Source: a virus. Taken from it: a DNA stretch of 22,793 bases. The position numbers were made by a program, and so were the translations under genes. Shown here in pieces: positions 1 to 20,674 of this stretch. The notes under the pieces were generated by a model, which ran no database searches, was not told where the DNA came from, and saw nothing but the letters and a program-made list of their open reading frames with translations. The stretch spans positions 1 through 22,793 of IMG/VR virus record IMGVR_UViG_3300033145_002492; one strand, written 5' to 3'. How positions within the stretch are numbered: the first letter of the stretch is position 1; each line of letters starts with the position of its first letter.

Positions 1-720
1 GAAGTTATAATATTACTCAGATAAATAGTTTAGAACACGATACAGTTTATGGAACTCACAATTCTCTCGTAATGATAGATAATACTCATTTTATTTTAGC
101 TTATTCTGGAGATAGTGGCTTCATCAAAACATTTAGCATAGACGGCTCTTATAACATTACTCAAATAGACAGCTTAGAACACGATGCAGAATATGGAAAG
201 TATAGCTCTTTCGTAATGATAGATAATACTCATTTTATTTTAGCTTATTCTGGTTCTGTTTTTGGCACGGACGGTTTTATCAAAACATTTAGCATAGACG
301 GAAGTTATAATATTACTCAGATAAATAGTTTAGAACACGATACAGTTTATGGAACTCACAATTCTCTCGTAATGATAGATAATACTCATTTTTTTTATTA
401 AAACATTCAGTATAGACGGCTCTTATAACATTACTCAAATAGACAGCTTAGAACACGATGCAGTTAAAGGAACTCACAATTCTCTCGTAATGATAGACAG
501 CACTCATTTCATTTTGGCTTATGTGGGAACTGATGATGATGATTATATCAAAATATTCTCAATAGACGGAAGTTATAATATTACTCAGATAAATAGTTTA
601 GAACACGATACAGTTTATGGAGGGCATAACTCTCTCGTAATGATAGACAGCACTCATTTCATTTTGGCTTATGCTGGTTCTATTTTTGGTATAGACGGTT
701 TTATCAAAACATTTAGTGTG
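1..720 (+). repeat. Tandem ~150-bp coding repeats (propeller-like blades)
   Basis: There are near-identical nucleotide repeats within the adhesin gene. Bases 1-92 are identical to 301-392, and bases 1-53 recur at 569-621. A second variant (GCTCTTATAACATTACTC) occurs at about 145 and 419, so two unit types alternate. The nucleotide identity is far higher than among the corresponding repeats of the downstream paralogue, which are diverged. That suggests recent duplication or gene conversion here. The array continues past the left edge, so its copy number cannot be counted from this window and may be collapsed by assembly. Confidence 0.85.
3..401 (+). pseudogene. 5'-partial upstream segment of repeat adhesin 1 (frame broken)
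   Basis: The reading frame is open from the window edge (codons start at base 3), so the true start lies outside. It encodes about 50-residue repeats with landmarks SYNITQI, SLEHD, VMIDNTHFILAYSG and DGFIKTFSIDG. The frame ends at TAA 399-401, directly after a T8 run (389-396). Downstream, the same repeat continues in the next frame (IKTFSIDGSYNITQ from 397) and runs into the gene at 490. Compared with the neighbouring copy (81-143), the copy at 381-417 is 26 nt shorter, which explains the shift. The two segments therefore look like one gene split by a 26-bp deletion, or by a homopolymer error on top of an in-frame loss. The ATG at 72 is an internal Met and not a start. The fold is inferred to be a beta-propeller because the paralogue downstream has seven such repeats. 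Confidence 0.7.
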
Positions 721-3700
721 GAGGGGGCAGTTTCTGATTTATCTATTGATATTTATGACTCAATTACAATTACTGAAAATATTGAATTCTTTCCTGGTAA
801 TATTGATGATTCTATTTCTATCACTGAAAATATTACAATAACTAATACTCAACTTGGGGATATTTCCTTGTTTGATGAAACTACTTTAACAGAAGATATT
901 TCTATAGAAATTGAAAAACCTTATAGATTAAAAACACAAGGTGGAACAACGGCAATTACGGCTGGAAATACGAGCATTGATGTAACCTTAGATATTAATA
1001 TTTCAGATTTATCAAGAGCATTTTTAGTAATGAAAACATCTGGAGATTCAGGTGCTAATTTGGGTTCAGAACATCAGGCAACTGGATATTTATGGGATGA
1101 TTCTGGAATAACTAAAATAAGGTTTGAAAGAGATTCTACTGAAGATGATTGCCAAATATCATATTATGTAGTTGAAACAAACAATGAAGATTTTACTGTT
1201 CAGCGTGGAGATTGTTTAATAACTGCTGGAAATTCTACTGTTGATGATGATTTTATAACAGATATAACACAGTCAAGAACAGTTTTAATTTCAAATTCAA
1301 GGAGTAGTAATACAACTAATGAGGGATATGCTATTGGAGAATTCAAAGACAATAATACGGTTACTTTTACAAGAAATCCAACGACAAACGCAACTACCAT
1401 TAGATATGAAATAGTTGAATGGTCAGTAGAAAGTGGAGTTAGTGTTTATACAGGGGAACAAGATTTATCGGGAGATATTTCTACTGGAGTTTCTACAGAT
1501 ATTACATCTCACGGAATTACTAAAGCACAAACTTGGTTATTTGCTACTTTTAGACACACAACAAATGGATTAGAGCAAACTGCTATTGCTACCAGTTTAA
1601 CGAGTGATACTGCTATTTTATGGCAAAGATATGACCAAACAACCAGTTATGTTTCAACAGGAAGATATTGGTTAGTTGAGTTTCCGAGTGATGTTGTTGT
1701 TCAGCATTCTGGAGTAGTTGAAGCGGTATCAGGAGATTTTACAAAAGATTATAGTATTAGTGCTATAGATACATCAAGAGCCTGGGGAGACCATTATAAT
1801 TCATGTAATGGGACAGGGACAGCTTTTCCACGAAACGCTTGGATTGATTTTTTTGAAAACACAACAACATTGAGAGCACAAAGGTGGTATGACGGTCAAG
1901 CAGGAGAAATTGCTTTTCAGGTTATTGACATAAGTGATTGGACTTACACAACAGGAGAAGAAGATTTAACTATTGATATTAGTGATTCTATTTCTATTAC
2001 AGAAAATATATCTATAACCAATACTCAACTTGGAAATGTTTCTTTATTTGGTGAAATTACTTTAATAGAAAATATTTCTATAGAAATTGAAACACCTTCA
2101 GCAGATTTAAGTATTTCAATAACTGAAACAATAACTATTACAGAAGATATAAATATTGGAATGATTTTTGATGTTAATCTTTTTGATTCTGTTTCTATTG
2201 TAGAAAATGTAGTTATTGAAAATAAAGAAATCGGAATTAATATTTTTGATTTAATATCTATTACGGAGAATATTTTTATTAACAAAATTTTAGAAATAAG
2301 TATTTTTGATTTACTTTCTATTTCAGAAAATATTTCAATATTGAATACAGAATTAGGTAACATATTTGTTTCAGATAATATTTCAATAATTGACAATACA
2401 ACGGAATTTAAAGAATTAGATATTAATTTATTTGATTCTATTTCTGTAACTGAAAATATTACAATAACTAATACACAATTAAGTGGAATAAATGTCAATG
2501 ACGAAATCTTAATTATAGAAAATATTGAAAGTGAAAGTCAATTGTTTGTTTCTATTTATGATGAAGTAACAATTTCAGAAGATATTTCTATGATTCTTGG
2601 TTATGGAATTAATATTTCTGATGAAATTGCAATTACCGAAAGTGTTATAATTGAAAATCTTGAATCAAATATTTCAATTTCAGATGAAATTACGATAACA
2701 GAATTAATTGCTATTGGTAGAAATTTGTTTATTTCTGAAAGTGAAGATGTTTCTATAACTGAATCTATAGATATTGATAACATCCAACTTGGAAATATTG
2801 ATATTTCGGATGAAATTGCTCTTACAGAAGATACAAATATAGGAAAGGTATTAGATGTTAATACTTATGATTCTATTTCATTTACAGAAGATATTAGTAT
2901 TGGAATTACTGCTGTTTCTGATATTAATATTGATGTATCTGATTCTATTTCTATTGCCGAATCTATAGATATTGAAAGAATTATATTTATAAATGTTAAT
3001 GATTCTACCTCCATTTCAGAAAACATTAGCATTGAAAATATACAACTTGGTGGAATAGATATTTACGACACAATAATAATTACTGATGACTCAGCGGGAG
3101 GAGGAGTATTGTTTATTTCAATTTCAGATTTGGTTTCTATTGCTGAAAATATTGATATTGAAAATAAAGAATTAAATACAAGTGTTTCAGATTCAATTAG
3201 CATAACAGAAGGTATTACTTCCAATGCAACAATTGGAGGAATTTCAGTATTTGATTCTACTTCTATAAGTGAATTAGTAGATACTGGGGGAGCTATTGTT
3301 ATCTCAACTGATGATTCAGTTACAATTACTGAAGATATAAATTCAGAAAATACTCAATTAGGTCAAATTAGTTTGTCTGAAAATATCTCTATTATTGAAA
3401 ATATTTTAATTGAAAAAGAATTAAATCTAAATATTTCAGATTCTATTATTATTGTTGAAAATATTATTATAGATAATATACAACTTGGTGGGATAAACAT
3501 TTTTGATACAATTAATATTGTAGATGACACTTCTGAAACAAAAGAATTAGAAATAAATATTTTTGACACAGTTTCAATTACAGAAAATATTGAAATAAAT
3601 AATATTCAATTAAGCATTAGTATTATTGATAATATTGCGATTATAGAACAAATTGAAATTATTCCAGATTTATTGATAAATATTTATGATGTAATTTCTA

Positions 3701-3918
3701 TAACAGAAAATATTTCTTTAGATATTAGCGAAGAATCAATACTATATATAAATATTCAAGAAAATATCTTAATTGAAGAAAGTATTAATATAGATAATAA
3801 TTTAGGAGAACTTTCGGTGAGTGATTCTATTGTAATAAGCGAAAGCATTACAACAGAGAACAAAAACATTGAGATAGAAAGTTATGGTCGAGAAATTATT
3901 GGAGTAAGAATTTTCTAA
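490..3918 (+). CDS. Giant repeat adhesin / tail fibre 1 (3' part; true start upstream)
   Basis: This is a probable virion-surface adhesin or fibre; no specific family is recognised. The ATG at 490 is only the first Met after the frame break, since the frame is open and repeat-like from 379. Numbering from that Met: residues 1-80 hold the last propeller-like repeats (MIDSTHFILAY twice). Residues 80-145 and 492-1135 are tandem beta repeats of about 20 residues with a core like ISDSISITENISI, often spaced by NTQLG or IENKEL. Residues 145-492 are a globular insertion of about four diverged 80-90-residue units, each ending in a strand like ISYYVVE or IRYEIVEWS. The stalk is rich in Asp, Glu, Ser, Ile and Asn and has almost no Lys or Arg, so it is very acidic. 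The stop is only 4 nt before the next ATG (3923), which indicates co-transcription with its paralogue. A surface-layer-like host protein is an alternative, but the phage neck genes that follow favour a fibre. Confidence 0.75.
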   Translation: MIDSTHFILAYVGTDDDDYIKIFSIDGSYNITQINSLEHDTVYGGHNSLVMIDSTHFILAYAGSIFGIDGFIKTFSVEGAVSDLSIDIYDSITITENIEFFPGNIDDSISITENITITNTQLGDISLFDETTLTEDISIEIEKPYRLKTQGGTTAITAGNTSIDVTLDINISDLSRAFLVMKTSGDSGANLGSEHQATGYLWDDSGITKIRFERDSTEDDCQISYYVVETNNEDFTVQRGDCLITAGNSTVDDDFITDITQSRTVLISNSRSSNTTNEGYAIGEFKDNNTVTFTRNPTTNATTIRYEIVEWSVESGVSVYTGEQDLSGDISTGVSTDITSHGITKAQTWLFATFRHTTNGLEQTAIATSLTSDTAILWQRYDQTTSYVSTGRYWLVEFPSDVVVQHSGVVEAVSGDFTKDYSISAIDTSRAWGDHYNSCNGTGTAFPRNAWIDFFENTTTLRAQRWYDGQAGEIAFQVIDISDWTYTTGEEDLTIDISDSISITENISITNTQLGNVSLFGEITLIENISIEIETPSADLSISITETITITEDINIGMIFDVNLFDSVSIVENVVIENKEIGINIFDLISITENIFINKILEISIFDLLSISENISILNTELGNIFVSDNISIIDNTTEFKELDINLFDSISVTENITITNTQLSGINVNDEILIIENIESESQLFVSIYDEVTISEDISMILGYGINISDEIAITESVIIENLESNISISDEITITELIAIGRNLFISESEDVSITESIDIDNIQLGNIDISDEIALTEDTNIGKVLDVNTYDSISFTEDISIGITAVSDINIDVSDSISIAESIDIERIIFINVNDSTSISENISIENIQLGGIDIYDTIIITDDSAGGGVLFISISDLVSIAENIDIENKELNTSVSDSISITEGITSNATIGGISVFDSTSISELVDTGGAIVISTDDSVTITEDINSENTQLGQISLSENISIIENILIEKELNLNISDSIIIVENIIIDNIQLGGINIFDTINIVDDTSETKELEINIFDTVSITENIEINNIQLSISIIDNIAIIEQIEIIPDLLINIYDVISITENISLDISEESILYINIQENILIEESINIDNNLGELSVSDSIVISESITTENKNIEIESYGREIIGVRIF
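910..1970 (+). other. Globular fourfold beta-domain inserted in adhesin 1 stalk
   Basis: This region covers about 350 residues between two stretches of DSISITENI-type stalk. Four diverged units can be aligned by eye. Each starts near a Thr/Asp-rich strand (AGNTSIDVTLD, AGNSTVDDDFI, ISTGVSTDI, FTKDYSISAI), passes a hydrophobic strand after Ser/Arg (SRAFLVM, SRTVLIS, QTWLFAT, SRAWGDH) and ends in an aromatic strand (YYVVE, YEIVEWS, YWLVEF, FQVIDIS). This layout resembles repeated beta-sandwich carbohydrate-binding modules of the H-type-lectin kind, but that is inference from pattern only. It is the most likely receptor-contact module of this protein. Confidence 0.5.
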
Positions 3919-3922
3919 AAAT

Positions 3923-6900
3923 ATGATAGAACTATTAAAAATAAAAAGAAATAAAGAATTTATTAAAAGTATCAGAGAAACTGATAGTGTTGTTATTGAG
4001 AATGGATTTACTAAAACTTATATAGCTAAAGAAAAGAAATTGAAAATAGAAAGTGAAGGAAAAATGATTGATATGGAACTTTTATCTTCTTATAATAAAA
4101 TAGTTGGAATAGGAGAAAGTGTTTTGGTAGCTGAAATAAAACTAAAAGATTGGAAAAATAAAAATGATTTATTTGATAAATTAGGTTTTTATAATAGAAA
4201 TAATTTTCAAAAATTAGATAAACAATTTACTTTGAAATGGTGTGAAGAAAAAACTATTAAAATGGAACTTCCAGTAGATTTTCCAAATGAAGTGAGAGAT
4301 GATAAAATGTTTGAAAAAATAATTGGTGATTGGAATAATGCTATTGAATTTACTAAACTAAATGAATTACCACACAAAGATATACGAATTGGTATTTTTG
4401 CAGAAACAATTCTAGGAGAAAAAATAGAATGGATACCAACTATTGATAATTTTAATATTTATGAATGGGCTGGGTGGGCTACATCTGAAATAGATGTTTT
4501 AGAATTTGATATTGCAAATGGTTCATATCATTCTATGGTTCTTATTGATAGCACCCATTTTGCGATTGCTTATTCAGGAAATGGTAATGATGGTTTTATT
4601 AAAACTTTTTCTTTTGATGTAAATTTTGAAAATATTACGGAAATAGCTATTTTAGAACATGATACTATATTTGCAATTGACAATTCCTTAATTCTTATAG
4701 ATTCAACTCATTTAGTTTTAGCTTATAAAACATCTGATGATTCTGGGCATTTGAAAATATTTTCTTTTGATGGTTCTTATGAAAATATTACTGAAATAAA
4801 TGATTTTGAATTTGAATCTGTTAATGCTAATTCAATTTCTTTAGTAAAAATAGATTCTACTCATTTTATAGTAGCTTGGTCTGGTGATTATAAAGGTGAT
4901 ATTGCCACTTATACTATAGATGCTAGTTATGTTATTTCTGAATTAAATTTTTTACAGCATGATAGTTCAAATTCAAGTTGGAATAGTTTAGTATCTATTG
5001 ATAGTTCTCATTTTGTTTTAGCTTATAAAGGAACCAGTGGAGATGATGGGGTTGCTAAAACTTTTAGTATTGATGGTAGTTATATAATAACTGAAATAGA
5101 TAGTTTAGTATTTGAAACCCAAGTATTTCAATATGTGTCTTTAGCATTAATAGATTCTACTCATTTTGCAGTGGCTTATCAAGGGAATTTTGATGGTCGG
5201 ATAAGAACATTTTCAATGGATTCTTCCACTGCTGATAATATTGCTACAATAGATAGTTTAGATTTTGATACTGACTTAGTATATCCTTCTTTAGTTCTAA
5301 TTGATTCTTCTAATCTTGCAGTAGCTTATTCAGGGAAAGATAATGATGGATTTATACAGACATTTATTTTAGATGGTAGTTTTAATATTGAAAAAGTTTA
5401 TTCTTTTGAACATGATATTGTATATGGTTCTCATAACTCTTTAGTAAAAATAGATTCTACTCATCTTGGATTAGCTTATTATGGGGAGGCTAGTGATGGC
5501 TTTCTTAAAACTTTTTTGTTAGAAGAAGCTCCAGTATCTATTAATGTAAATGATTCTATTTCTATTGTAGAAGATATTTCAATAAATAATACTCAACTTG
5601 GTATTGATATTTTTGATACTGTTTCAATATCAGAAGATATAAACATTGGAATAATTTTTGATGCTAATCTTTTTGATTCAATTTCTATAACAGAAAATAT
5701 TGCAGTAACAAAAGTATTTGATATTAATAAAGTTGAGAATATCTCTATTGATGAATCTTTTATAATAATAAATGAACAATTAGGAGACATTTCTATATCA
5801 GATAATATTTCAATTGTTGATGATATTTCTGAAACAAAAGAATTAGAAATAAATATTTCAGATAATCTTAATCTTATAGAATTAATTAATGTAACTAATA
5901 TTGAATCAAATATTTCTATTTATAATGAAATTATAATTAATGAGGACACACAAATAAAGGAAAATTCATTTTTGAATATTTTTGATGATGTTGTATTGAC
6001 TGAAATAATTTTCGCAGAAAGTCTCTTGAGTATAGATGTATTTAACACTGTTTCAATTTTAGAAAATATATCTAAAACAAATACTCAGCTTGGAGATATT
6101 TCAATTTCAGATAATATTACTGTTTTAGATGACATAGACCAAACAAAAATTTTATCTATAAATTGTTTTGATTCTGTTTCTGTTGTTGAAAATATTTCTA
6201 TAGAAAATATACAGTTAGGAGGAATTGATATGTATAATGAAATTGTTATTACTGAATTAAATACATTAGAATTTAATTCATTTATTTCTGTCAATGATTC
6301 TGTGTCATTATCTGAAAATATTGTTCCTAATAATACTGAACTTGGAGATATTTTAGAAATAGAAAATATTTCTTTAGAAGATATCGTTAGTATTCAAAAT
6401 GAACAATTGGGAGATATTTTATTGAATGATGAATTAACAATAACTGAAGATTTAACAACATATTTTTTATCAGATATTAATATTTTTGATACAATAACAT
6501 TAAGTGAAAATATTGAAACTGAAAATACAGAATTAAATATAAATATATTTGATGAAATTACTATTACAGACAACCTTTCTGAAAGTGGAACTCTATTTAT
6601 AAATATATTTGATAGTATTGGGATTGCTGAAGATATTGAAATTGAAAATATTCAATTAAATATTAATGTTTATGATGAAGTTTTGGTTAGTGATTCTATT
6701 GATGAAGAAAATAATTTGTTTATAAATATTTCAGATTCAATTATTTTTTCTGAAGATATTATTTGTGAAAATCTTGAATTAAATACTAATGTATTTGATT
6801 TAATTTCTGTTACTGATGAGGTAGAAGAAAGTAGTAGTTTTGATATTAATGTTTATGAAGAAGTATTAGTGAGTGAAAATATTGAAATTGAAAATAAGGA

Positions 6901-7801
6901 AATTAGTATTGATATATTTGATAGTGTTATTGTGACAGATGATGTTTCTGAAGGTGGCTTATTATTTGTAAATGTTTACGATAATTTAATAATATCTGAA
7001 GATATTGAAATTAAAAATACTGAATTAAATATTAATGTAAATGATTCTATAAATATTATTGATTCACAAGAAGAAGAAAATATATTATCTATTAATATAG
7101 AAGATTTAATAAATATAACTGAAAGTGAAATTGTATCAAATATTCAATTAAGTGATATTATTGTAAGTGATAATATTACAATTACTGAAAGTGAAACTGA
7201 AACAAAAGTATTATATATTGAAACTAATGATTCAATTTCTATTATTGATAAGGTCTTTTATTATGATGATACTCTTATTGTTCATGAATCTATCAATACA
7301 ACAATTGAATTTAATATTAATGTATTTGATTCAATTTCAATAGGAGAAAATGTTGATGTAATTTCTGATTTAGCAATTAGTAAAAATGAAGAAATAGTTA
7401 TTACAGAATCTATAGAATTTAATTTACCATTAAGTATAAATATAGATGATAATATAGGAATTACAGAATCAATTTCAAGAGAAGAAATTAAATTCATTAG
7501 TGTTTATGATGAAATTGTAATTACAGAAAGTATTGAAAGTGGATTACCAATTAATGTTGATGTTTATGATTCAATAAATATTGGCGAAAATATAACAATT
7601 AATGAATCAGCTGTTATCATTTCTGTTTCAGATTCGATTGCAATTACTGAAAACCTTGAATTATTAAGGAGTTTTGAGTATCCTTATAAAAAGAAACCAA
7701 GTAATTATACTTCGACAGATGGTTTATATGTTAAAAAACCAGCGATATATGAAAATACTGACGGACTTTATAAAAAGAAACCAAATTTATACAGTTGTTA
7801 G
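3923..7801 (+). CDS. Giant repeat adhesin / tail fibre 2 with seven propeller-like repeats
   Basis: This 1292-residue paralogue of the preceding gene starts 4 nt after its stop. Residues 1-190 are a mixed, Lys-rich domain of unknown family (possible attachment domain). Residues about 195-530 hold exactly seven repeats marked by I-D-S-[TS]-[HN]-[FL]-x3-A-[YW], which is the number expected for a seven-bladed beta-propeller. Residues 535-1245 are an acidic stalk of about 20-residue beta repeats (DSISITEN-like). Residues 1251-1292 carry three KKPxxYxxTDGLY-type repeats, and the chain ends in Cys. No signal peptide is visible. A role as a virion fibre or adhesin is inferred from size, architecture and position before the neck genes. 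Cell-surface adhesin is the alternative. Confidence 0.75.
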   Translation: MIELLKIKRNKEFIKSIRETDSVVIENGFTKTYIAKEKKLKIESEGKMIDMELLSSYNKIVGIGESVLVAEIKLKDWKNKNDLFDKLGFYNRNNFQKLDKQFTLKWCEEKTIKMELPVDFPNEVRDDKMFEKIIGDWNNAIEFTKLNELPHKDIRIGIFAETILGEKIEWIPTIDNFNIYEWAGWATSEIDVLEFDIANGSYHSMVLIDSTHFAIAYSGNGNDGFIKTFSFDVNFENITEIAILEHDTIFAIDNSLILIDSTHLVLAYKTSDDSGHLKIFSFDGSYENITEINDFEFESVNANSISLVKIDSTHFIVAWSGDYKGDIATYTIDASYVISELNFLQHDSSNSSWNSLVSIDSSHFVLAYKGTSGDDGVAKTFSIDGSYIITEIDSLVFETQVFQYVSLALIDSTHFAVAYQGNFDGRIRTFSMDSSTADNIATIDSLDFDTDLVYPSLVLIDSSNLAVAYSGKDNDGFIQTFILDGSFNIEKVYSFEHDIVYGSHNSLVKIDSTHLGLAYYGEASDGFLKTFLLEEAPVSINVNDSISIVEDISINNTQLGIDIFDTVSISEDINIGIIFDANLFDSISITENIAVTKVFDINKVENISIDESFIIINEQLGDISISDNISIVDDISETKELEINISDNLNLIELINVTNIESNISIYNEIIINEDTQIKENSFLNIFDDVVLTEIIFAESLLSIDVFNTVSILENISKTNTQLGDISISDNITVLDDIDQTKILSINCFDSVSVVENISIENIQLGGIDMYNEIVITELNTLEFNSFISVNDSVSLSENIVPNNTELGDILEIENISLEDIVSIQNEQLGDILLNDELTITEDLTTYFLSDINIFDTITLSENIETENTELNINIFDEITITDNLSESGTLFINIFDSIGIAEDIEIENIQLNINVYDEVLVSDSIDEENNLFINISDSIIFSEDIICENLELNTNVFDLISVTDEVEESSSFDINVYEEVLVSENIEIENKEISIDIFDSVIVTDDVSEGGLLFVNVYDNLIISEDIEIKNTELNINVNDSINIIDSQEEENILSINIEDLINITESEIVSNIQLSDIIVSDNITITESETETKVLYIETNDSISIIDKVFYYDDTLIVHESINTTIEFNINVFDSISIGENVDVISDLAISKNEEIVITESIEFNLPLSINIDDNIGITESISREEIKFISVYDEIVITESIESGLPINVDVYDSINIGENITINESAVIISVSDSIAITENLELLRSFEYPYKKKPSNYTSTDGLYVKKPAIYENTDGLYKKKPNLYSC
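7675..7801 (+). repeat. C-terminal KKPxxYxxTDGLY triple repeat of adhesin 2
   Basis: After the acidic stalk ends, composition switches to basic and aromatic. Three units (YKKKPSNY..TDGLY, VKKPAIY..TDGLY, KKKPNLY) close the protein, followed by Ser-Cys-stop. The spacing of about 14 residues is regular. It could be a multivalent binding tail or a trimerisation tip. Function unknown. Confidence 0.65.
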
Positions 7802-7825
7802 ATTTCTTTTATTAATTAATTAAGG

Positions 7826-7831
7826 TATAAT
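7826..7831 (+). promoter_or_regulatory. TATAAT hexamer just upstream of adaptor gene
   Basis: A perfect -10 hexamer ends 6 nt before the ATG at 7838, so a transcript from it would start at or next to the start codon (leaderless). No -35 match is present 17 nt upstream. In DNA this A/T-rich it could be chance. Confidence 0.25.
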
Positions 7832-7837
7832 AAAAAT

Positions 7838-8440
7838 ATGAGCAATTATACAACAAAGGGGAAAATCCAAAATTATCTTGCAGTAGATATTAACGATTCT
7901 TTAGATAGCCAACTTACTGATTGGATTAGTGCTGTTACTAACTATATAGATAATTATACAGGAAAAAGTTTTGAAGAAACTGCTGATGAGGTTCGTTACT
8001 TTGATGGAAATGGAAAAAATGAAATTCAAATTGATGATTTTCTTTCTATTTCTTCAGTAGAAATATTAGAACTAGATTCAACTGATGTAGATTACACATT
8101 AACAGAAGGAGTAAATAACGATTATATTACTTTTCCTTATAATGACACTCCAAAATATAGATTACTGATGACAATTAATTCTCAAATTGCTAATTTCTTA
8201 AAAGGAGAAAAGAGAATTAAGGTTACAGCAACTTGGGGACATAGTTCAACAGTTCCTAAAGATATAGAATTAGCCGCAACAATGCTGGTTTCAAGTATTA
8301 TTGAAAAAGGAATGAAAGGTGGAACTATAATGTCAGAAAGTTTAGGAGATTATTCTGTTTCTTATGCAAATTTGGATAATCTTTCAAGTAGTTTAGGAGT
8401 AAAAGAAATCTTATCGAAATACAAAATTTGGGAATTATAA
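7838..8440 (+). CDS. Head-tail adaptor (gp6/gp15-like connector)
   Basis: This is a 200-residue protein likely to sit under the portal as the adaptor ring joining head and tail. The N-terminal helical part (about residues 5-45, with LDSQLTDWISAVTNYIDNYTG) matches the pattern of phage connector proteins: a short start, helix, 'yid.ytG..f', then strands. Residues 50-130 are predicted beta (RYFDGNGKNEIQIDD, SSVEILELDSTDVDYTL, IKVTATWGHS), with the typical 'tWGhs.vP.di..A...' followed by a C-terminal helix. It is followed 18 nt later by a head closure-like gene, the usual order in HK97/SPP1-type phages. The assignment rests on pattern and order, since no catalytic motif exists. Confidence 0.72.
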   Translation: MSNYTTKGKIQNYLAVDINDSLDSQLTDWISAVTNYIDNYTGKSFEETADEVRYFDGNGKNEIQIDDFLSISSVEILELDSTDVDYTLTEGVNNDYITFPYNDTPKYRLLMTINSQIANFLKGEKRIKVTATWGHSSTVPKDIELAATMLVSSIIEKGMKGGTIMSESLGDYSVSYANLDNLSSSLGVKEILSKYKIWEL

Positions 8441-8458
8441 GGTAATTAAAATGAAAAA

Positions 8459-8782
8459 ATGCAACTCACACATTTGCTAACAAAACGAATAATCATTTCA
8501 AGAAAGATTGCCACTACTGGTGATAAGATGGCTTTGAGCACAGTAACTTCTGTTATGATTAATTTACAACCAACAGCAAGTTCAAGCCGAGAAATTGCTG
8601 AAGGAGTTTTTGGAAAATCTTTTAAGATTTATTGCGATGGAGATATTGATTTACAAGCAGGAGATAGATTAAGAGATAATGCTACAGGAGATACTTATAC
8701 AGTAATGCCTGATGGAGTAACAAGAAGAAATATGGGTTGTATTGATTATACGATTGCGGTTATACAAAAAACTGAAAATTAG
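8459..8782 (+). CDS. Head closure / stopper-like protein
   Basis: This small (107-residue), mostly beta protein lies between the adaptor and the gp10-like neck gene. It carries the feature typical of phage head-tail stoppers: a middle strand pair around FKIYCDGDIDLQAGDRLRD, then GDTYTVMPDGV (compare 'gD.i.d..tG..Y.V'). It probably closes the portal channel after packaging. The start at 8459 is chosen because an ATG 8 nt upstream (8451) runs into a stop after nine codons. There is no SD sequence. The next gene begins 13 nt after the stop. Confidence 0.65.
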   Translation: MQLTHLLTKRIIISRKIATTGDKMALSTVTSVMINLQPTASSSREIAEGVFGKSFKIYCDGDIDLQAGDRLRDNATGDTYTVMPDGVTRRNMGCIDYTIAVIQKTEN

Positions 8783-8791
8783 TGCTATAAT
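8783..8791 (+). promoter_or_regulatory. Extended -10-like TGCTATAAT before the neck protein
   Basis: The TGN-TATAAT motif ends 4 nt before the ATG at 8796, so the predicted transcription start falls inside the start codon. This is either an accidental match in A/T-rich DNA or a leaderless start. A weak call. Confidence 0.25.
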
Positions 8792-8795
8792 AAAT

Positions 8796-10271
8796 ATGTC
8801 AAATTCATTTGAAATTGAAATAAAAGGATTAAATAAATTAAAGGGAGCGATTAGAAAATCACCTAAGATGGTTTATGGAGAATTATCTAATGCTATCAAA
8901 ACTTCAGTTCATTTTATCAGACCGATAATGAGAGGTGAAGCACCCAATCAATCTGGGAAATTAAGCAGAAATATTTTTGCCAATGCTAAAGGATTAGAGG
9001 GGGCAGTAGGACCTGATTTAGATGTAACGCCCTATGCTTGTATTTTTGATGGTAAGACAAGAATTATAACAGAAAAAGGGCGTAAACAAATAAATAATAT
9101 TAAAGTTGGTGAAAAAGTATTGACACAAGACGGGCAATATCATGTAGTATTAGCAACTCCTCAATTTAAGGCGATAGATAAACCTAATTTAGTAAATTTA
9201 GATATTGAATACAGAAAAGGAAATAATCATAAACTTATATTAACACAAGACCATAAAGTTTTAACTAGAAAAAATAATGCAATATGTTGGATTGAGGCAG
9301 GTAAATTAAAAAAAGGTAGTATTGTCTTTACAAGAATTAAAAAAGATAATAAAAAAGGTAAAGGACATAAATATATAAAAAAGATTTGTGAATATTGTGG
9401 TAAAGATTATATAGGTCAAGCTGTTAAATATTGTTCTATTGAATGTAGAGATAATCAATATAGGAAACATCATCCTCAATTAGGAATTAAAAGAAGTGAA
9501 GAAGTTAGAAATAGAATAGCTAAAGCTAATAGAAAGTATCTTGAGGAACATCCAGAAAAACATCCTAATAGAATAATGGTAAAATTAGGGAGAAGAACTT
9601 CTTGTCAGTTACAAATTAAAAACTGGTTAGACAAACTAAATATAAAATATATAGAAGAATACGGGGTCGGTAAAAAATTTGTTGATTTTTATATCAAAGA
9701 TACTAATACTGTATTTGAAGCTGACGGAGCTTATTGGCATAAAGACCAAAATAAAGATATTGAAAGAGATAAAGATTTATTAATAAATTTACCAAAAGAA
9801 TGTAATATTATTCATATACATTTTACAGATTATAGATTTTCTAAAGATATTAAAGTTAATCCAATAAAAAATGTTTATTATATTCAGGTGAATCCTAATA
9901 TGTCTTCATTTGTTAATTTATCAGAATTTAAGGAAGTTAAAATCTTAGATACAAAACAATGGAAATATACAAACAATTCAAATAAAAAATTATATGATTT
10001 AACTGTAGAAGGGATGCATTCCTTTGTTGCAAATGGTATTATAGTATCTAATAGTTATGTCCACGAAGGAACAAGTCCATATATAATTAGACCGAAAAAT
10101 AAGAAAGCTTTATATTGGAAAGGAGCTTTACACCCAGTTAGAGTAGTTCACCACCCAGGAATTACAGCAAATCCATTTATTGAAAGAACTTTTGGGCAAA
10201 TTAAAAGTCCTGTAGAGAAAATTTTTCAAAATACAATTAAGAAAATTATTAGTAATATTCATAAAGGATAA
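8796..10271 (+). CDS. HK97 gp10-like neck / tail-completion protein precursor with intein
   Basis: The precursor has 491 residues. Residues 1-81 (N-extein) and the last 72 residues (C-extein, from Ser at 10053) join into a 153-residue protein of the HK97 gp10 family. It has an N-terminal strand (FEIEIKGLNKLKGAI), the APNQSGKLSRNI segment typical of the family, then PYA-SYVHEGTSPYIIRPKNKK across the splice junction and PFIERTF near the end (family pattern: 'YA.yVEfGT...... PF..pa'). The start at 8796 is preferred over the ATG at 8742, which overlaps the upstream gene by 41 nt. The protein probably forms part of the neck or caps the tail during joining. Function in the virion depends on removal of the intein. 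The stop lies 2 nt before the next ATG. Confidence 0.85.
   Translation: MSNSFEIEIKGLNKLKGAIRKSPKMVYGELSNAIKTSVHFIRPIMRGEAPNQSGKLSRNIFANAKGLEGAVGPDLDVTPYACIFDGKTRIITEKGRKQINNIKVGEKVLTQDGQYHVVLATPQFKAIDKPNLVNLDIEYRKGNNHKLILTQDHKVLTRKNNAICWIEAGKLKKGSIVFTRIKKDNKKGKGHKYIKKICEYCGKDYIGQAVKYCSIECRDNQYRKHHPQLGIKRSEEVRNRIAKANRKYLEEHPEKHPNRIMVKLGRRTSCQLQIKNWLDKLNIKYIEEYGVGKKFVDFYIKDTNTVFEADGAYWHKDQNKDIERDKDLLINLPKECNIIHIHFTDYRFSKDIKVNPIKNVYYIQVNPNMSSFVNLSEFKEVKILDTKQWKYTNNSNKKLYDLTVEGMHSFVANGIIVSNSYVHEGTSPYIIRPKNKKALYWKGALHPVRVVHHPGITANPFIERTFGQIKSPVEKIFQNTIKKIISNIHKG
9039..10052 (+). mobile_element. Intein (338 aa) with EDxHD/Vsr-like homing endonuclease
   Basis: The Hint splicing domain is visible at both ends. 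It begins at Cys (CIFDGKTRIITEKG, block A), has LTQDHKVLTR with the TxxH of block B, and ends LYDLTVEGMHSFVANG then IIVSN (blocks F and G), followed by Ser as +1 nucleophile. The penultimate residue is Ser instead of the usual His. Between the splicing halves lies a zinc-finger-like CEYC..CSIEC segment, a basic helical stretch, and a nuclease core VDFYI..VFEADGAYWH..ERD that resembles very-short-patch-repair-like (EDxHD) homing endonucleases, with likely active residues E308, D310 and H315 counted from the Met at 8796. The boundaries restore a continuous gp10-like extein. The family of the nuclease is inferred from the motif; the intein call itself is firm. Confidence 0.9.
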
Positions 10272-10273
10272 TC

Positions 10274-10711
10274 ATGTTTACAACTTTATTAAACAAAATA
10301 ACCAGCATTCTGTCTGCTAATGAATTGATTTCAGCAACATTTAATTATGAAGCTCAACAATTCAATGAAGACCCTGTTGCAGTGGTAACTCCTTCAGGAA
10401 ACGAAAGTGATTATAGCACTACGAAAGAAAATGAAAGAATTTATGCTTTTAATCTAAAACTTTTTGTTTCTAGAACTGACAGAGAGCCAGAACAAGCAGA
10501 TAGAGTTTTAAGAAATTTAGTTGATAGTGTGCTGGATGATTTTGATAAAGATTATTACTTTGTAGGTTTGACAGTTCCGACAGGATATACGATGATTAAT
10601 GTGTTCGCTACTCCCTCAAATTGGGGATATGCAGGGCGTGAGAGTGAATATAGGGTGAGCGAAGTGGTAATCAAATGTAGAGTTAGCGTGAATGTTACTG
10701 CGATTTCGTAA
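10274..10711 (+). CDS. Tail terminator-like protein
   Basis: This 145-residue protein starts 2 nt after the neck protein stop. It has an N-terminal helix (FTTLLNKITSILSANELI), a mixed strand core including ERIYAFNLKLFVSR, a helix with ADRVLRNLVDSVLDDFD, and C-terminal strands ending ECRVSV-like (EVVIKCRVSVNV). This is the layout of small tail-terminator proteins (lambda gpU / SPP1 gp17 type), which form a ring that stops tail-tube growth and binds the head. Its position between the neck gene and the tail tube gene supports this. Sequence alone does not prove it. Confidence 0.62.
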   Translation: MFTTLLNKITSILSANELISATFNYEAQQFNEDPVAVVTPSGNESDYSTTKENERIYAFNLKLFVSRTDREPEQADRVLRNLVDSVLDDFDKDYYFVGLTVPTGYTMINVFATPSNWGYAGRESEYRVSEVVIKCRVSVNVTAIS

Positions 10712-10748
10712 CTATGAATTTTGGTCGATAGTATGTTATGATAGATTA

Positions 10749-10777
10749 TTGATAAAAAATGTAATTTTATATATAAT
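10749..10777 (+). promoter_or_regulatory. Sigma70-type promoter candidate for the major tail gene
   Basis: TTGATA (10749-10754), a 17-nt spacer and a perfect TATAAT (10772-10777) give the best -35/-10 pair seen in the structural region. It lies in the only sizeable gap between tail genes (10712-10904). The predicted start is near 10784, leaving a leader of about 120 nt before the major tail gene. An extra promoter here would let the tail tube subunit be made in excess. Confidence 0.5.
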
Positions 10778-10804
10778 ATGTGTATGAAAAAAATTAAGAT
10801 AATA

Positions 10805-10825
10805 TACAATTATGTCGGAATTGTA
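10805..10825 (+). promoter_or_regulatory. Perfect 7-bp inverted repeat in the major tail gene leader
   Basis: TACAATT and AATTGTA flank a 7-nt loop (ATGTCGG), about 20 nt downstream of the predicted transcription start. It could be an operator or a leader hairpin. There is no T-run, so it is not a terminator. The remainder of the 193-nt gap shows no gene: the longest ATG-started frame on the + strand here that I followed is 19 codons. Confidence 0.3.
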
Positions 10826-10904
10826 ATTATGAATTAAAATGTAATGAATTAAGACAAGAAGTAATAAAAGGGAAATAGATTATTACATTAATAAATAAAT
10901 TTTT

Positions 10905-11879
10905 ATGATTTGGATTGGAAGAAGAATGAGTATAGGAATTGCAAACGAAGTTTCTAGAGGAACTGGAGTTGCTCCTACTTATTGGGTAAATGCACTTTCT
11001 TTCTCTTTTAGAGATGTGCCAGAAAGAGCTTTATCAGAAGCTGGATTCGGAGGAATCTGGGGAGGGGACCAAAGCCCTAAAACTTTGGAACATGCAGAAG
11101 GGGAGATGGAACTTGAAGTAGATGACCAATCAATTGGTGCTATCTTAAAAGCTGTATTTGGAACAGTGTCAAGTGCTGTTGAAGATACAACTGCTTATAA
11201 ACATACATATACATTACAAAATGATAATCAACACGATTCAATAACAATTACTACAATTGACCCTATTGGACAGTTGCAATTTGAATTAGGAATGGTTGAT
11301 ACTTTTGAACTTAGGATAGAACCTAATGCAATTGTATCGGCTCGTGTGAATTTCTTAGCTAAAGGAAGCAATAATACAAGTGAACACTCCGCTTCTTATA
11401 CAGCTGTAAAGAAATGGTTAGGAAGACATCTTACTTTCAAAGTAGGAGCTACAACAGCAGATTTAGCTGCTGCTTCTGGAGTTGATTTGAAAAGTTTAAC
11501 ATTAACTATTGAAAAGAATGCAGAAGTAAATGCAACTCTTTCAACAGTTCAACCTGAAGATATTATAAACAAGAGATTCAATATCACAGGAGAATTTACT
11601 TTGAACTATGAAGATAGAACTTGGTTAAATTATGTTAAAAATGCAACAAACAAAGCTATCAGAATTGATTTAGTTCATGATGATTTAGCTGGTTCAGCAA
11701 CAGCATATTACCAAATCAGATTAGATTTGAGTAAATGTTCAATTGAAGGTTTTGACCCTGATTTTGGAATGGATGATGTTGTTACACAAACATTTACATT
11801 TAACGCTCTTTATGATGCAGGTGGAAATGATAATGTTGTAAACGATTGTTACTTAATCAATCAAGTAGCAAGTTATTAA
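10905..11879 (+). CDS. Major tail protein (tail tube subunit)
   Basis: This 324-residue protein forms the tail tube. The N-terminus, with WIGRRMSIGIANEVSRGTG followed by APTYW, is the signature of a common phage tail-tube family ('iGrk.s.GiakE..rGT.v.p.yWip'). Therefore the start at 10905 is preferred over an internal ATG at 10926. The region around GGDQSPKTLEHAEGEMELEVD and the strand-rich body with IDPIGQLQFELGMVDTFELRIEP fit as well. It lies directly before the chaperone pair and tape measure gene, the canonical order. It has its own promoter candidate at 10749-10777, consistent with high expression. No C-terminal Ig-like decoration is evident. Confidence 0.82.
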   Translation: MIWIGRRMSIGIANEVSRGTGVAPTYWVNALSFSFRDVPERALSEAGFGGIWGGDQSPKTLEHAEGEMELEVDDQSIGAILKAVFGTVSSAVEDTTAYKHTYTLQNDNQHDSITITTIDPIGQLQFELGMVDTFELRIEPNAIVSARVNFLAKGSNNTSEHSASYTAVKKWLGRHLTFKVGATTADLAAASGVDLKSLTLTIEKNAEVNATLSTVQPEDIINKRFNITGEFTLNYEDRTWLNYVKNATNKAIRIDLVHDDLAGSATAYYQIRLDLSKCSIEGFDPDFGMDDVVTQTFTFNALYDAGGNDNVVNDCYLINQVASY

Positions 11880-11897
11880 TAAGTAATTAAAAAAATT

Positions 11898-12251
11898 ATG
11901 AATGAAAGAGAACATATAGATTTTGTAACACCTGAAGATAAACACAAGGTTATAATCAAAGCTTGGCTTACAGCTAGAGAGCGAAGAAGTATTCGTTCAG
12001 TTCTTTTAGATGGAATTAAATTTTCAGTAAAAGAAGGAGAAGAAAGTCCTATTTCTGATTATAATTTAGAAGGTTCTTCATTAGATAAGATGCAAGATAT
12101 TGCATTAACAACAGTAGTTATTTCTGTAAATGAAAAAACAGATAATATATTAGATACAATTCTTGAAATGAAAGAGGTTGATTTTGATTTCATTATTAAA
12201 GAAATTGATAAAATCACAGGAAGTTTAGATGAAGATACTAAAAAAAAATAG
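11898..12251 (+). CDS. Tail assembly chaperone, short form (gpG-like)
   Basis: This 117-residue protein sits between the tail tube and tape measure genes. The N-terminus (HIDFVTPEDKHKVIIKAWLTARERRSIRSVL) resembles tail assembly chaperones, which usually begin 'f.tp.g..v.lK.wlt.rE...i'. It ends DEDTKKK with TAG at 12249-12251, directly after a run of nine A (12240-12248). In lambda-like phages the short form binds the tape measure protein and recruits tail tube subunits without entering the virion. The A9 run is the slip site for the long form described separately. Confidence 0.8.
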   Translation: MNEREHIDFVTPEDKHKVIIKAWLTARERRSIRSVLLDGIKFSVKEGEESPISDYNLEGSSLDKMQDIALTTVVISVNEKTDNILDTILEMKEVDFDFIIKEIDKITGSLDEDTKKK

Positions 12252-12457
12252 TAAACGAATATCAAAACCTACTGAATGATGGAAAAGGAATTATCTCGGA
12301 GCAACTTGAAATCGTCCTTTTTTGCAAATCAATGCATTGGGGTTATGAAACTTATGTCCGACAACCACAATGGTTTTTAGATATTTTCAGGATTGTAGGA
12401 AACCTTGATGCTGAATATCAAAAAAGATTAGATAGAATTAATAAAAGAAAAAGATAA
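11898..12457 (+). CDS. Tail assembly chaperone, frameshifted long form (gpGT-like)
   Basis: A -1 slip on the A9 run (12240-12248) would replace the TAG stop by ATA-GTA-AAC and continue for 69 codons to TAA at 12455-12457, giving a 186-residue fusion. The -1 frame is closed upstream by TAA at 12239-12241 and open from 12242, so the shift can only happen in this short window, exactly on the slippery stretch. The added part (NEYQNLLNDG, then QLEIVLFCKSMHWGYETYV, then PQWFLDIFRIVGNLDAEYQKR) looks fully coding and has no start codon near its beginning. Its TAA overlaps the ATG of the tape measure gene by one base (TAATG). This is the classic G/GT arrangement, and the ratio is presumably set by slippage efficiency. 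Confidence 0.85.
12240..12248 (+). promoter_or_regulatory. Programmed -1 frameshift site (A9)
   Basis: The codons are ACT-AAA-AAA-AAA-TAG. Both tRNAs can re-pair perfectly after slipping back one base, as in A-AAA-AAA heptamers, and the zero-frame stop follows at once. No obvious strong downstream stem is seen in the next 30 nt, so stimulation may come from the adjacent stop codon alone. Confidence 0.8.
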
Positions 12458-15400
12458 TGGATAAATCAACATTACAAATTGTTCTGTCTGCTAAAGACGA
12501 TTTATCAAAGGAACTTGTTAAAGTTCAGAAAGAATTAACTAAATTATCTAATGAATTTAAGAAAGGAAAAACAACGAGTAAACAAGCAGCAGATAGTATA
12601 ACAAAAGACCTAAAGAAAATAGATAATGAAGCGACAAATGTTCGCGGTGGAATTAAAAAACTTGTAGGAACATTTCAAGGTTTAGGAGCAATGCGTCTAT
12701 TCGGAGCAATAGGTGCTCTTTTGGCGTTGCGTAAAGCAATGTTATTAACTAAAGATGCTATGTTCAAAGCAGCTGATTTTGAAAAAGTAATGTCTGATGT
12801 TAATACTTTATTCAATGACACAGGAGAAAATGTTGCTAGATTAGAAAAAGGAATAAAAAATATGGTAAAGAGTATGCCAATTGACCCTAATGAATTAGGA
12901 AAAGCTGCTTACCAAATTGTTTCTGCTGGTATTAGTGATACATCTGAAGCATTAAAAGTTTTAGAGGCATCTGGTAAATTAGCTACTGCTGGTTTATCTA
13001 CTACTGCTGAAGCAGCTGATATTTTAACTTCTGCTGTAAATACTTTTTCAAAAGATGGATTGACTTCTGCTGAAATAGCAAATGTTCTTTTCAAAACTGT
13101 GAAAGCTGGTAAGACTACAGTAGCGGAATTAGCTCAAGCTTTTGGTGCAACTGCTCCTATGGTTGCTGAAGCTGGAGTTAAATTCAAAGATTTCCAGGCT
13201 GCAACTGCGGCACTTACTACAACTGGTTTACCTGCAGCCCAAGCTCAAAATGCTCTTAGAGGTGCGATGTCAGCTTTGATTAAAACATCTGGACCTATGA
13301 AAGAATTATTAGCAAAAATTGGAGAAGAAATGGGGATAGATAATATGAAAGGCAGGGACCTTATTGCAACTACTGATAATATGGGTCAAGCTTTTGATTT
13401 ACTTAGAAAAGCTTCTAAAAAACATAATATATCACTTGAAGAAGCCTTTGGTCGTGTTGAAGCTCTAAATGCTGTATATGGTCTTACGGATTCTGTAGTA
13501 GGGTCTTATGTTAATACTTTAGAATCTGTAAATGATGCTACTGACCTACTTACTGAAGGTTTTTTGAAACAACAAAAAACAATGACAGCACAATGGCAAC
13601 TTATCAAGAACCAAGTAAATGTTGCTTTAATAGATTTAGGTTCTAAAGTTTTTCCTATTGTCTTGAAAGCAATTAATACTGGAATTGGAGCAGTAGAAGG
13701 ATTGATAAATATTTATAGTAAACTTGAAGAATTTATTACAGGTTATTTAATTCCTGCTCTTGTAGGTTTAGCAGCTTCTTTCGCTGTTATTTTTGTAACA
13801 GGAAAAGTTCAAGCAATTGGTTGGGCAGCTGTTGTTACTAAAGCTTTTGATGCTGTTTGGCTTAGTAGTATAAAATTAGGACTTTCATTAGATGCCTTAA
13901 AAGTTAAAATGTTAGCTATTCCTGGGCTTAATCTTGCAATTGCAATTGGTTTTGCTGTAACTGAATTTGTTAGATTAATGAAAAGTATAAAACAAACGAA
14001 TAAAGAACTAGATGAAAATACAGAAGCAATGATTAAAAATGTTGATGCACAGATAAAAAGAATTAAAGCAACAAGAGGTATGGAAGTTATTGCTGAATCT
14101 GCTACTAATGAAAAAGTTAAACAATTATTGTTGGAAAAAGTTGAATGGAATAGACGAGCACAGGAAGGAATGACAGAAGATTTCCGAGTGGCATCTAAAG
14201 AAAGAATGAGAATTTTAAGAGAAGAAATTGCAAAATCTCCTCAAGCAAGATTAGAATTAGCTAAACTTGCTGGTATAGGTGATATTGAAGAAATAGAAGC
14301 AGAAATAGCTCAAACAGAAGAAATTCTAAAAAGTGCCAAAAAAGAATATAACGATTTTGGAAAAACTGTTTCTAAAATTTGGATTGAATTACAACTTGCT
14401 CATGAAAAGAGTATTGAAAAAATTACAAATAAATTAAGTGGTTTAAGTGATAAATATAATGAAACTCAAATAAAAGGTTCTGAAGCTATTGCAAAATTAA
14501 AAGAAAATTCAGCTAATAGTTTGAAAGATATTGATAAAAGTATTTCAAATGTAAATCAAAGTATGGCTGACCTTATTGCTGAATTTGAAAAGACTAAAAT
14601 TAGTGATAGACGAGGTATAGGACAAGTTTTTGTTGAAGCTGAAGAAAGAGTTAAAGATTTGAAAAAAGAATTAGCGAGAGCTACTGATGTTCAACAAATT
14701 TTAGATATCAAAAATCAAATAAAAGCAGAAGAAGATGCTTTAGCAAAATCTGCTGATGTAAGAAAACAATTTTCTATTGAAATAGCCGAAGCTCAAAGAC
14801 GAGCTGGTTTAAGTGATATCCAAAGAGCAGTAGAAGATTTTAATTCTAAAAGAGAATTAGCTGAATTAGAATTCAATGCAAAAATGTCTGACCTACAAAC
14901 TGAAAAACAAGCTTTGATTGAAAAGAGAGCTTTAGAAAAGCAAATGTATTTGGATAAAATTGAAGACCAAAAAGTAACTACTCTTTTGAAATTAAAAAGT
15001 ATTCTTGAAGAAAAAGTTGCTTTATTACAACAACAAAAAGAAGAAGTTACTTTATTCAAACAAAAAGAAGATACTATTTTAGGATTGATTACAGAAGCTC
15101 AAGCAGAAAGAACTAGAATTACTTTAGATGCTCATAATCAAACTGCTGAAGCAGTTGAAGCTGAAATTCAATTATATAATGAATTAGCTGCTGCTATAAA
15201 AAGCGCTGCTTCAGCAAGTGTTGGTTCTTTGATTACTCCTACTCCTTTTGGTGGAATACCTTTAGGAAATAGAGCAACAGGAGGACCAATTCAACAATCA
15301 GGAATGTATAATCTTCATCAAGGAGAATATATTTTGAATCGTAGAGAAAGTAGAGGAGTAGGTGGAATAGTTGTAAATATAAATGGAGGAACATATCTTT

Positions 15401-15468
15401 CAGAACAAGTTGCTGAAGAAATAGGAGATAAGATTATTTCGAAACTTAAAACAAATACGCGACTTTAA
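12457..15468 (+). CDS. Tail tape measure protein (TP901-type core)
   Basis: This 1003-residue protein sets tail length and is ejected ahead of the DNA. Residues 1-60 form a charged coiled coil, and about 72-95 is a hydrophobic stretch. Residues about 105-400 carry the conserved tape measure core (AADFEKVMSDVNTLF, ELGKAAYQIVSAGISD, AADILTSAVNTF, TVAELAQAFGATAPMVAEAG, TTGLPAAQAQNALRGAMSAL). Residues 428-447 (YLIPALVGLAASFAVIFVTG) look membrane-spanning. Residues about 608-890 are a long coiled coil. The C-terminus has the usual RATGGPIQQSGMYNLHQGEYILNRRES segment. By the rule of about 0.15 nm per residue, the tail would be near 150 nm. The start overlaps the chaperone stop, so translation is probably coupled. 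Confidence 0.92.
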   Translation: MDKSTLQIVLSAKDDLSKELVKVQKELTKLSNEFKKGKTTSKQAADSITKDLKKIDNEATNVRGGIKKLVGTFQGLGAMRLFGAIGALLALRKAMLLTKDAMFKAADFEKVMSDVNTLFNDTGENVARLEKGIKNMVKSMPIDPNELGKAAYQIVSAGISDTSEALKVLEASGKLATAGLSTTAEAADILTSAVNTFSKDGLTSAEIANVLFKTVKAGKTTVAELAQAFGATAPMVAEAGVKFKDFQAATAALTTTGLPAAQAQNALRGAMSALIKTSGPMKELLAKIGEEMGIDNMKGRDLIATTDNMGQAFDLLRKASKKHNISLEEAFGRVEALNAVYGLTDSVVGSYVNTLESVNDATDLLTEGFLKQQKTMTAQWQLIKNQVNVALIDLGSKVFPIVLKAINTGIGAVEGLINIYSKLEEFITGYLIPALVGLAASFAVIFVTGKVQAIGWAAVVTKAFDAVWLSSIKLGLSLDALKVKMLAIPGLNLAIAIGFAVTEFVRLMKSIKQTNKELDENTEAMIKNVDAQIKRIKATRGMEVIAESATNEKVKQLLLEKVEWNRRAQEGMTEDFRVASKERMRILREEIAKSPQARLELAKLAGIGDIEEIEAEIAQTEEILKSAKKEYNDFGKTVSKIWIELQLAHEKSIEKITNKLSGLSDKYNETQIKGSEAIAKLKENSANSLKDIDKSISNVNQSMADLIAEFEKTKISDRRGIGQVFVEAEERVKDLKKELARATDVQQILDIKNQIKAEEDALAKSADVRKQFSIEIAEAQRRAGLSDIQRAVEDFNSKRELAELEFNAKMSDLQTEKQALIEKRALEKQMYLDKIEDQKVTTLLKLKSILEEKVALLQQQKEEVTLFKQKEDTILGLITEAQAERTRITLDAHNQTAEAVEAEIQLYNELAAAIKSAASASVGSLITPTPFGGIPLGNRATGGPIQQSGMYNLHQGEYILNRRESRGVGGIVVNINGGTYLSEQVAEEIGDKIISKLKTNTRL

Positions 15469-20047: not shown

Positions 20048-20674
20048 ATGAGTAAGTTTATAGACTTAGCAGGACAAAAATTTAGTAAATTGACAGTAAT
20101 AAAAAAAATGGAAAAAGATAAATATGGAGTATATTTTTGGCTTTGTCAATGTGAATGTGGAAATGTTAAAAAAATAAGAGGTAGCCACTTAAAAAGTGGA
20201 TATACAAAAAGTTGTGGTTGTTTACAAAAAGAAATAGTAACCAAAATAGCAAAAACTTATGGAATGGCATATAATTTAGAATATAAAAGTTGGGCAAATA
20301 TGAAACAGCGTTGTCTAAATAAACATAATTCAAAATATAAAGATTGGGGTGGTCGTGGAATAAAGGTTTGTAAAAGGTGGTTAAAATTTGAAAATTTTTA
20401 TAAGGATATGGGAGATAAACCATTCAAAAGTTATAGTATAGATAGAATAGATAATTCAAAAGGATATTTCAAAGAAAATTGTAGATGGGCAACAAAAAAA
20501 GAACAAGCAAGAAATAAAAGAAATAACAAAATGATAACTTATAAAGGAGAAACTTTTTGTTTAAAAGAATGGTCAGAAAAATTAAATATAAAATATAGTA
20601 TTTTACAAAATAGACTAAATGATAAATGGGATATTAAAAAATTATTCCAACAACCTCGATATTACAATAAATAA
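20048..20674 (+). CDS. Free-standing HNH homing endonuclease
   Basis: This 208-residue protein has an N-terminal segment GQKFSKLTVIKK, then a cysteine-rich finger (CQCECG...KSCGC, residues about 34-58). The HNH/AP2-type core is WGGRGIKVCKRWLKFENFYKDMG, then SYSIDRIDNSKGYFKENCRWATKKEQARNKR (read in pieces; residues about 100-160). A C-terminal helix-turn-helix-like part (TFCLKEWSEKLNIKYSILQNRL) resembles NUMOD DNA-binding modules. It is typical of selfish endonucleases inserted between phage genes. Here it separates the endolysin from a second holin-like gene. Its codons are even more A-rich than those of its neighbours. It is preceded by a 59-nt A/T-only-like leader without an SD sequence. 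Confidence 0.87.
   Translation: MSKFIDLAGQKFSKLTVIKKMEKDKYGVYFWLCQCECGNVKKIRGSHLKSGYTKSCGCLQKEIVTKIAKTYGMAYNLEYKSWANMKQRCLNKHNSKYKDWGGRGIKVCKRWLKFENFYKDMGDKPFKSYSIDRIDNSKGYFKENCRWATKKEQARNKRNNKMITYKGETFCLKEWSEKLNIKYSILQNRLNDKWDIKKLFQQPRYYNK

Follow-up and report, generated by a model that had tools for sequence, protein, structure and literature searches.

The gp10-family gene of a 22,793-base virus record of metagenomic origin (GC 28%; the whole of this stretch is called the window) very probably encodes a splicing, homing-type intein within a tail-completion protein, and the nuclease domain of the intein in all likelihood is, or was, a homing endonuclease. The ORF at 8742-10271 on the plus strand runs without interruption, with the ATG at 8796 as its likely start. 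The intein begins with CIFDGKTRIITEKG at the Cys1 codon (9039-9041) and ends with ANGIIVSN, the Asn338 codon (10050-10052) being followed by Ser. A preliminary description of this DNA had placed a 338-residue intein at 9039-10052, between PYA and SYVHEGT, and the codon positions and intein profiles proved this right to the base. The insert matched TIGR01443 intein_Cterm (30.4 bits; cut-off 15.6), Pfam Intein_splicing (1.4e-8, 35.1 bits, slightly below the 35.8 cut-off) and Pfam DUF559 (3.4e-4, 20.9 bits, at the cut-off of 20.6). The joined flanks, 153 aa in length, scored above the cut-off of TIGR01725 HK97_gp10 (37.2 vs 30.8 bits), whereas the unspliced ORF stayed below it at 17.8 bits. In phrog_5 ('tail completion or Neck1'), the joined extein reached 3e-14 and the two halves, taken separately, 0.013 and 6.9e-6; removal of the insert thus restores a 153-residue family member, as had been proposed. 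The features of the locus and its neighbourhood are listed in Table 1, in which numbers with the prefix L denote other loci.

Table 1. Coordinates of the intein-bearing gp10 gene, its parts and neighbouring genes in the window.
Feature	Position	Strand	Evidence
Head-tail adaptor (gp6-like connector), upstream	7838..8440	+	phrog_442, 4.5e-21
Probable head-tail adaptor or head-closure protein, upstream	8459..8782	+	Weak: phrog_615, 0.012; gene order
gp10-family gene, split by the intein	8796-10271	+	HK97-gp10 / tail-completion family
N-extein, 81 codons, ending TPYA	8796..9038	+	Colinear with intein-free allele L004:4998-5237
Intein, 338 aa, Cys1 to Asn338	9039..10052	+	Boundaries, profile matches, family alignment, AF2 model
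N-terminal Hint half: block A; block B T69-x-D71-H72	9039..9353	+	Invariant in 13-sequence alignment; AF2 model vs gp41-1
C4 zinc-finger-like motif C117-x2-C120-x11-C132-x3-C136, presumed DNA-binding	9387..9446	+	Four Cys invariant in 13/13 inteins
EDxHD/Vsr/DUF559-type nuclease domain	9597..9824	+	3R3P profile match; Pfam DUF559
Gln190 (CAG) at the Glu position of EDxHD	9606..9608	+	Glu in 14/16 full-length inteins; Lys in L045
C-terminal Hint half: block F LYDLTVEGMHSF, block G ANGIIVSN	9921..10052	+	TIGR01443, 30.4 bits; family comparison
C-extein: +1 Ser, SYVHEGTSPYIIRPKNKKALYW..., stop codon	10053..10271	+	Joined-extein profile; L004 colinearity
Probable tail terminator, downstream	10274..10711	+	Position only; conserved in L004
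Tail tube protein	10905..11879	+	Pfam Phage_tube_2, 5.6e-24
Tape measure protein	12457..15468	+	Pfam PhageMin_Tail, 3e-26

The residues expected of a splicing domain are conserved across the related inteins described below. In a 13-sequence alignment, Cys1, T69/D71/H72 of block B, L318-Y-D of block F, H327-S-F and N338 were invariant, and Cys1, the block B TxDH, the block F HSF, the final Asn and a +1 Ser were present in all 16 full-length inteins (the partial relative L062 has a +1 Cys). The AF2 model of the intein had a mean pLDDT of 86, and its Hint part matched the gp41-1 intein at 1.8 A rmsd. Foldseek matches of the model were inteins and hedgehog autoprocessing domains, with gp41-1 first and Mtu RecA also among them; a search of the PDB with the family profile of the Hint part likewise gave the gp41-1 intein as the best match. 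The penultimate position holds Ser in 15 of the 16 inteins and Ala in L060, the usual His occurring in none. A penultimate His is usual but not obligatory in class-1 inteins, and since exceptions are known, its absence is compatible with class-1 membership; splicing may, however, be slow or need compensation. Judged by its sequence, the element is a class-1 intein of ordinary layout, contiguous and bearing a homing endonuclease domain. The absence of the penultimate His, together with weak Pfam matches to PT-HINT and Hint_2, could also point to a Hint self-cleaving protein of the BIL or pretoxin-HINT type that cuts without joining. We regard this as very improbable, because all 16 full-length copies have a +1 Ser, a kind of residue that BILs usually lack at this position, and because the flanks join into one complete gp10 protein whose gene exists without the insert in close relatives.

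The closest relative found, L004, shares about 80% nucleotide identity with the window over positions 7472-14844 (about 7 kb). Its gp10 gene is uninterrupted, reading ITPYA/IYVHDGT (the slash marks the insertion point), and its product is 78% identical in amino acid sequence to the window extein; the 1,014-base insert is absent, and the junction shows neither loss nor gain of a codon. L004 is therefore an intein-free allele in which PYA is joined directly to xYV, the kind of allele that the preliminary description had suggested looking for. A second set of filled and empty alleles was found in L051 (filled) and L101, L102 and L100 (empty), with flanks 85-91% identical and empty junctions reading GAMQ/AFLAEHGH or GAMQ/SWLVEHGH. 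The L100 sequence indicates that an intein-free gene may already have the +1 Ser. Chance is excluded, since the junction of the L004 allele coincides with the predicted one and 15 more full-length inteins interrupt gp10-family genes at this codon or its neighbour. An assembly chimera or misjoined contig, conceivable because the record is metagenome-derived, has a negligible probability here: separate contigs drawn from many samples carry diverged in-frame versions at the same motif, and the window and L004 are colinear around the insert for about 7 kb. In L004, a free-standing NUMOD3/HNH endonuclease gene (L004:5459-5989) lies directly after gp10, its ATG at 5459 following the gp10 stop at 5456; the window has no such gene at this position. 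Two kinds of homing element, the HNH gene of L004 and the intein of the window, may thus compete around one gene.

Family searches yielded 18 distinct gp10-type loci with related inteins, the window included, on 23 contigs when near-copies were counted; 16 of these inteins are distinct and full-length, and two (L048, 63% identical, and L062) are partial. The window and about 17 other uncultured phages thus make up a set that ranges in GC from 28 to 66% and whose members are very different from one another. When ten further spliced exteins were tested, phrog_5 was the top family for every one (2e-9 to 5e-22). Insertion is at YA/S.VE.GT or one codon upstream. The alignment of insertion sites, which took in 19 intein-free homologues, placed the site directly after the YA of YA..VE.GT in the window, L045, L046, L047, L049, L050, L054, L060 and L063 (L109 and L110 have the same YA/S flanks), and one codon upstream, ahead of the A-equivalent residue, in L002, L051, L053, L055 and L056. 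The empty allele L101 (MQ/AFLAEHGH) confirmed the one-codon shift with no gap needed. Since homologous inteins lie one codon apart, the residue of YAxxVE that the +1 Ser replaces differs between the two groups. The intein tree was poorly resolved, a single origin of the shifted group receiving a support of 25/0. The description of the site as the most conserved point of the protein stood for YA..VE.GT among the intein-bearing exteins; the comparison with intein-free homologues is biased, as that set was retrieved via the KNKKALYW motif.

The inteins are more alike than the proteins that carry them: the window and L045 share 60% identity in the intein against 31% in the extein, and the L051 group shares 81-87% against 54-80%. 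This is expected of inteins that move between hosts or that are under stronger constraint, and the difference could partly reflect such constraint rather than transfer. Searches with the inteins of the window, L046 and L109 against 50,697 named phages, and with that of L047 against 72,556 plasmids, recovered no relative over the full length; the matches were partial, to other nucleases and to Hint and DUF559 proteins. The gp10 proteins of about 85,000 bacterial genomes yielded no related intein; a scan of genome contigs gave two weak matches, both to nuclease-like parts. No named phage was close to the window at the DNA level. Terminases and other nucleic-acid enzymes are the best-known hosts of phage inteins. 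The host protein and the insertion site appear to be new and the kind of element known, as the family had no member in the named phages and the literature searched contained no description of a tail-completion protein with an intein; earlier papers on the EDxHD family may mention related contiguous inteins.

Neither the endonuclease nor the wider intein family was part of the preliminary description. Between the Hint halves, a basic linker connects the zinc-finger-like motif to the nuclease domain, in which T187..Q190 (E in relatives), D216, E227-A-D229-G, H234, D240 and R243-D244 were recognized. The best PDB match of the family profile over this region was 3R3P, the catalytic domain of I-Bth0305I (3.4e-6); the sister intein of L045 matched Vsr at 6.7e-4, below the cut-off. 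EDxHD/Vsr-type nucleases are an accepted family of homing endonucleases (PMC3943268; PMC12350094). LAGLIDADG or HNH identity was rejected, as Pfam gave no such match; some of the matched PHROG families are named HNH. The Glu of the T..E motif, aligned with that of 3R3P, is present in 14 of the 16 full-length inteins and in the partial L048. These 14 carry all four catalytic residues (E, D, H and D), and the window and L045 lack the E only.

Cutting and homing by the window copy are doubtful because Gln190 replaces the Glu of EDxHD. In our judgement it is as likely as not that the intein is still able to splice while its homing endonuclease has already lost its activity in the window lineage, the element having entered the vertical, decaying part of the homing cycle; this is a variant of the homing-type reading and does not contradict it. 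The change of Glu to Gln in the window and to Lys in L045, at a position kept in the 14 others and in L048, argues for such a loss. The window copy nevertheless retains the active-site residues D216, E227, D229, H234, D240 and D244, and its nuclease region, compared with that of L045, had a dN/dS of 0.23 (dN 0.23, dS 1.0), a rough value since synonymous sites are near saturation; the ratio was about 0.05 for L002/L055. In both pairs, dN was lower in the nuclease region than in the Hint region. On these sequence comparisons, the nuclease domain of the window and L045 remains constrained by purifying selection. It is unlikely, though conceivable, that the EDxHD domain with Gln or Lys in place of Glu has taken on a new role in the window lineage, such as nicking or DNA binding that protects or regulates the gp10 locus, instead of simply decaying.

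The gene order of adaptor, small ORF, gp10, small ORF, tube and tape measure is the usual one for a gp10 gene, which here lies between the probable head-closure gene and the probable tail-terminator gene, the latter followed by the tail tube gene; the ORF at 10274..10711 had no family match in Pfam and PHROG profile searches. HK97 gp10 is the counterpart of lambda gpZ, SPP1 gp16.1 and 80alpha gp51, and the 80alpha equivalent lies inside the neck, where it contacts DNA and the tape measure and has been suggested to take part in joining and ejection (PMC11661146). The host had been called an HK97-gp10-like neck protein; the family assignment was correct, and by the equivalences given in the 80alpha neck paper it is better named a tail-completion protein, a small protein that finishes the tail ahead of its attachment to the head. 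In the model that AF2 gave for the empty allele (pLDDT 89), a short helix spanning residues 79-85 links a beta-hairpin to an extended loop, and the insertion site A80/I81 is at the beginning of this helix; the predicted position fits the layout described for 80alpha gp51 (PMC11661146). The top PDB match of this model was chain P of 9MU2, the 80alpha neck structure, and was weak (E 0.31, probability 0.66). As the gp10 product acts in tail completion and its 80alpha equivalent sits in the neck, particle formation probably depends on splicing, and the preliminary view that particle joining does so is a reasonable one. Elsewhere in the window, a free-standing HNH endonuclease gene (20048-20674; phrog_374, 9.5e-76) follows an amidase gene. 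Positions 490-7801, upstream of the connector genes, hold a pair of very long ORFs (1142 and 1292 aa); they consist of degenerate ISITENISI-type repeats and longer SLEHDTVYG..NSLVMIDNTHF repeats and had no NCBIfam match.

From the anatomy, empty sites, recurrence, predicted fold and conserved residues observed here, we infer splicing, DNA cutting and homing in the following form. The precursor would be translated as a single chain, Cys1 would begin an N-S acyl shift, Ser+1 would receive the N-extein by transesterification, and Asn338 would then cyclise, releasing the free intein and the joined 153-aa tail-completion protein, which would enter the tail end. The EDxHD/Vsr-type nuclease, steered by the zinc-finger and linker region, would cut the empty gp10 allele brought in by a co-infecting phage, its target being the conserved coding motif YA..VE.GT, and repair of the break would copy the intein in. 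In this way, an intein lineage specialised on YA..VE.GT would have spread through very different phages, the endonuclease of the window copy being possibly weakened by the Gln at the Glu position of EDxHD. Homing is the simplest account of the distribution because the inteins are more identical than their exteins, close relatives include both filled and empty alleles, and the coding target is conserved. The repeated occurrence at a single motif of a late structural protein, with a penultimate Ser that could slow splicing, might instead suggest that the intein is kept for regulated splicing that sets when the mature tail-completion protein appears, thereby controlling the joining of head and tail. 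This appears quite improbable, as the close relatives L004 and L100-L102 lack the intein and selfish homing explains the recurrence; no evidence of regulation was found.

On the homing-type reading, a head-tail-joining virion protein is added to those whose production in phages may require protein splicing, and one intein lineage recurs at one motif in phages that otherwise share little. Because YA..VE.GT is widely conserved in the gp10 gene family and filled and empty alleles are available at up to 91% identity, these loci offer a clear system for studying the choice of homing targets. The +1 positions one codon apart allow asking whether intein insertion sites drift, and the combination of a Ser-Asn ending with an EDxHD nuclease makes the set useful for intein and endonuclease researchers.

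Among known systems, the mycobacteriophage inteins, found in TerL, portal and RecB-like proteins, resemble the window intein in having essential phage proteins as hosts (PMC5050341). The tail-completion protein is not among the hosts listed there. Structural hosts, which the preliminary description had set apart from the usual ones, do occur, as mycobacteriophage portal proteins carry inteins (PMC5050341). The inteins of MuF-like minor head proteins (L064-L067; Gordonia phage Barsten) have a related Hint domain and a DUF559-type nuclease and also lie in a virion morphogenesis protein; they differ in site (C..C / HP.CRC) and in a +1 Cys, and are only 25-32% identical to the window intein. The MuF-like head protein of L064 (L064:1-3540) has two inteins, at VL/CEFC and HPM/CRC, and a C-terminal ADP-ribosyltransferase domain (Pfam), and L065, L066 and L067 have their related inteins at HPR/CRC; weaker matches were seen to the head morphogenesis protein of Barsten and to helicases of Vibrio phages such as CP-T1. 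The nuclease domain most resembles I-Bth0305I, the best PDB profile match, with which the T..E, F, E..G.YW and D residues align; I-Bth0305I is encoded by a group I intron, whereas the window domain lies inside an intein and has Gln in place of Glu. The splicing domain is closest in sequence and fold (1.8 A) to the cyanophage-like gp41-1 intein (PDB 6QAZ), likewise of phage origin. The gp41-1 intein is split and is found in a helicase-type gene; the window intein, in contrast, is contiguous, carries a nuclease, resides in a virion protein and ends in Ser-Asn rather than His-Asn.
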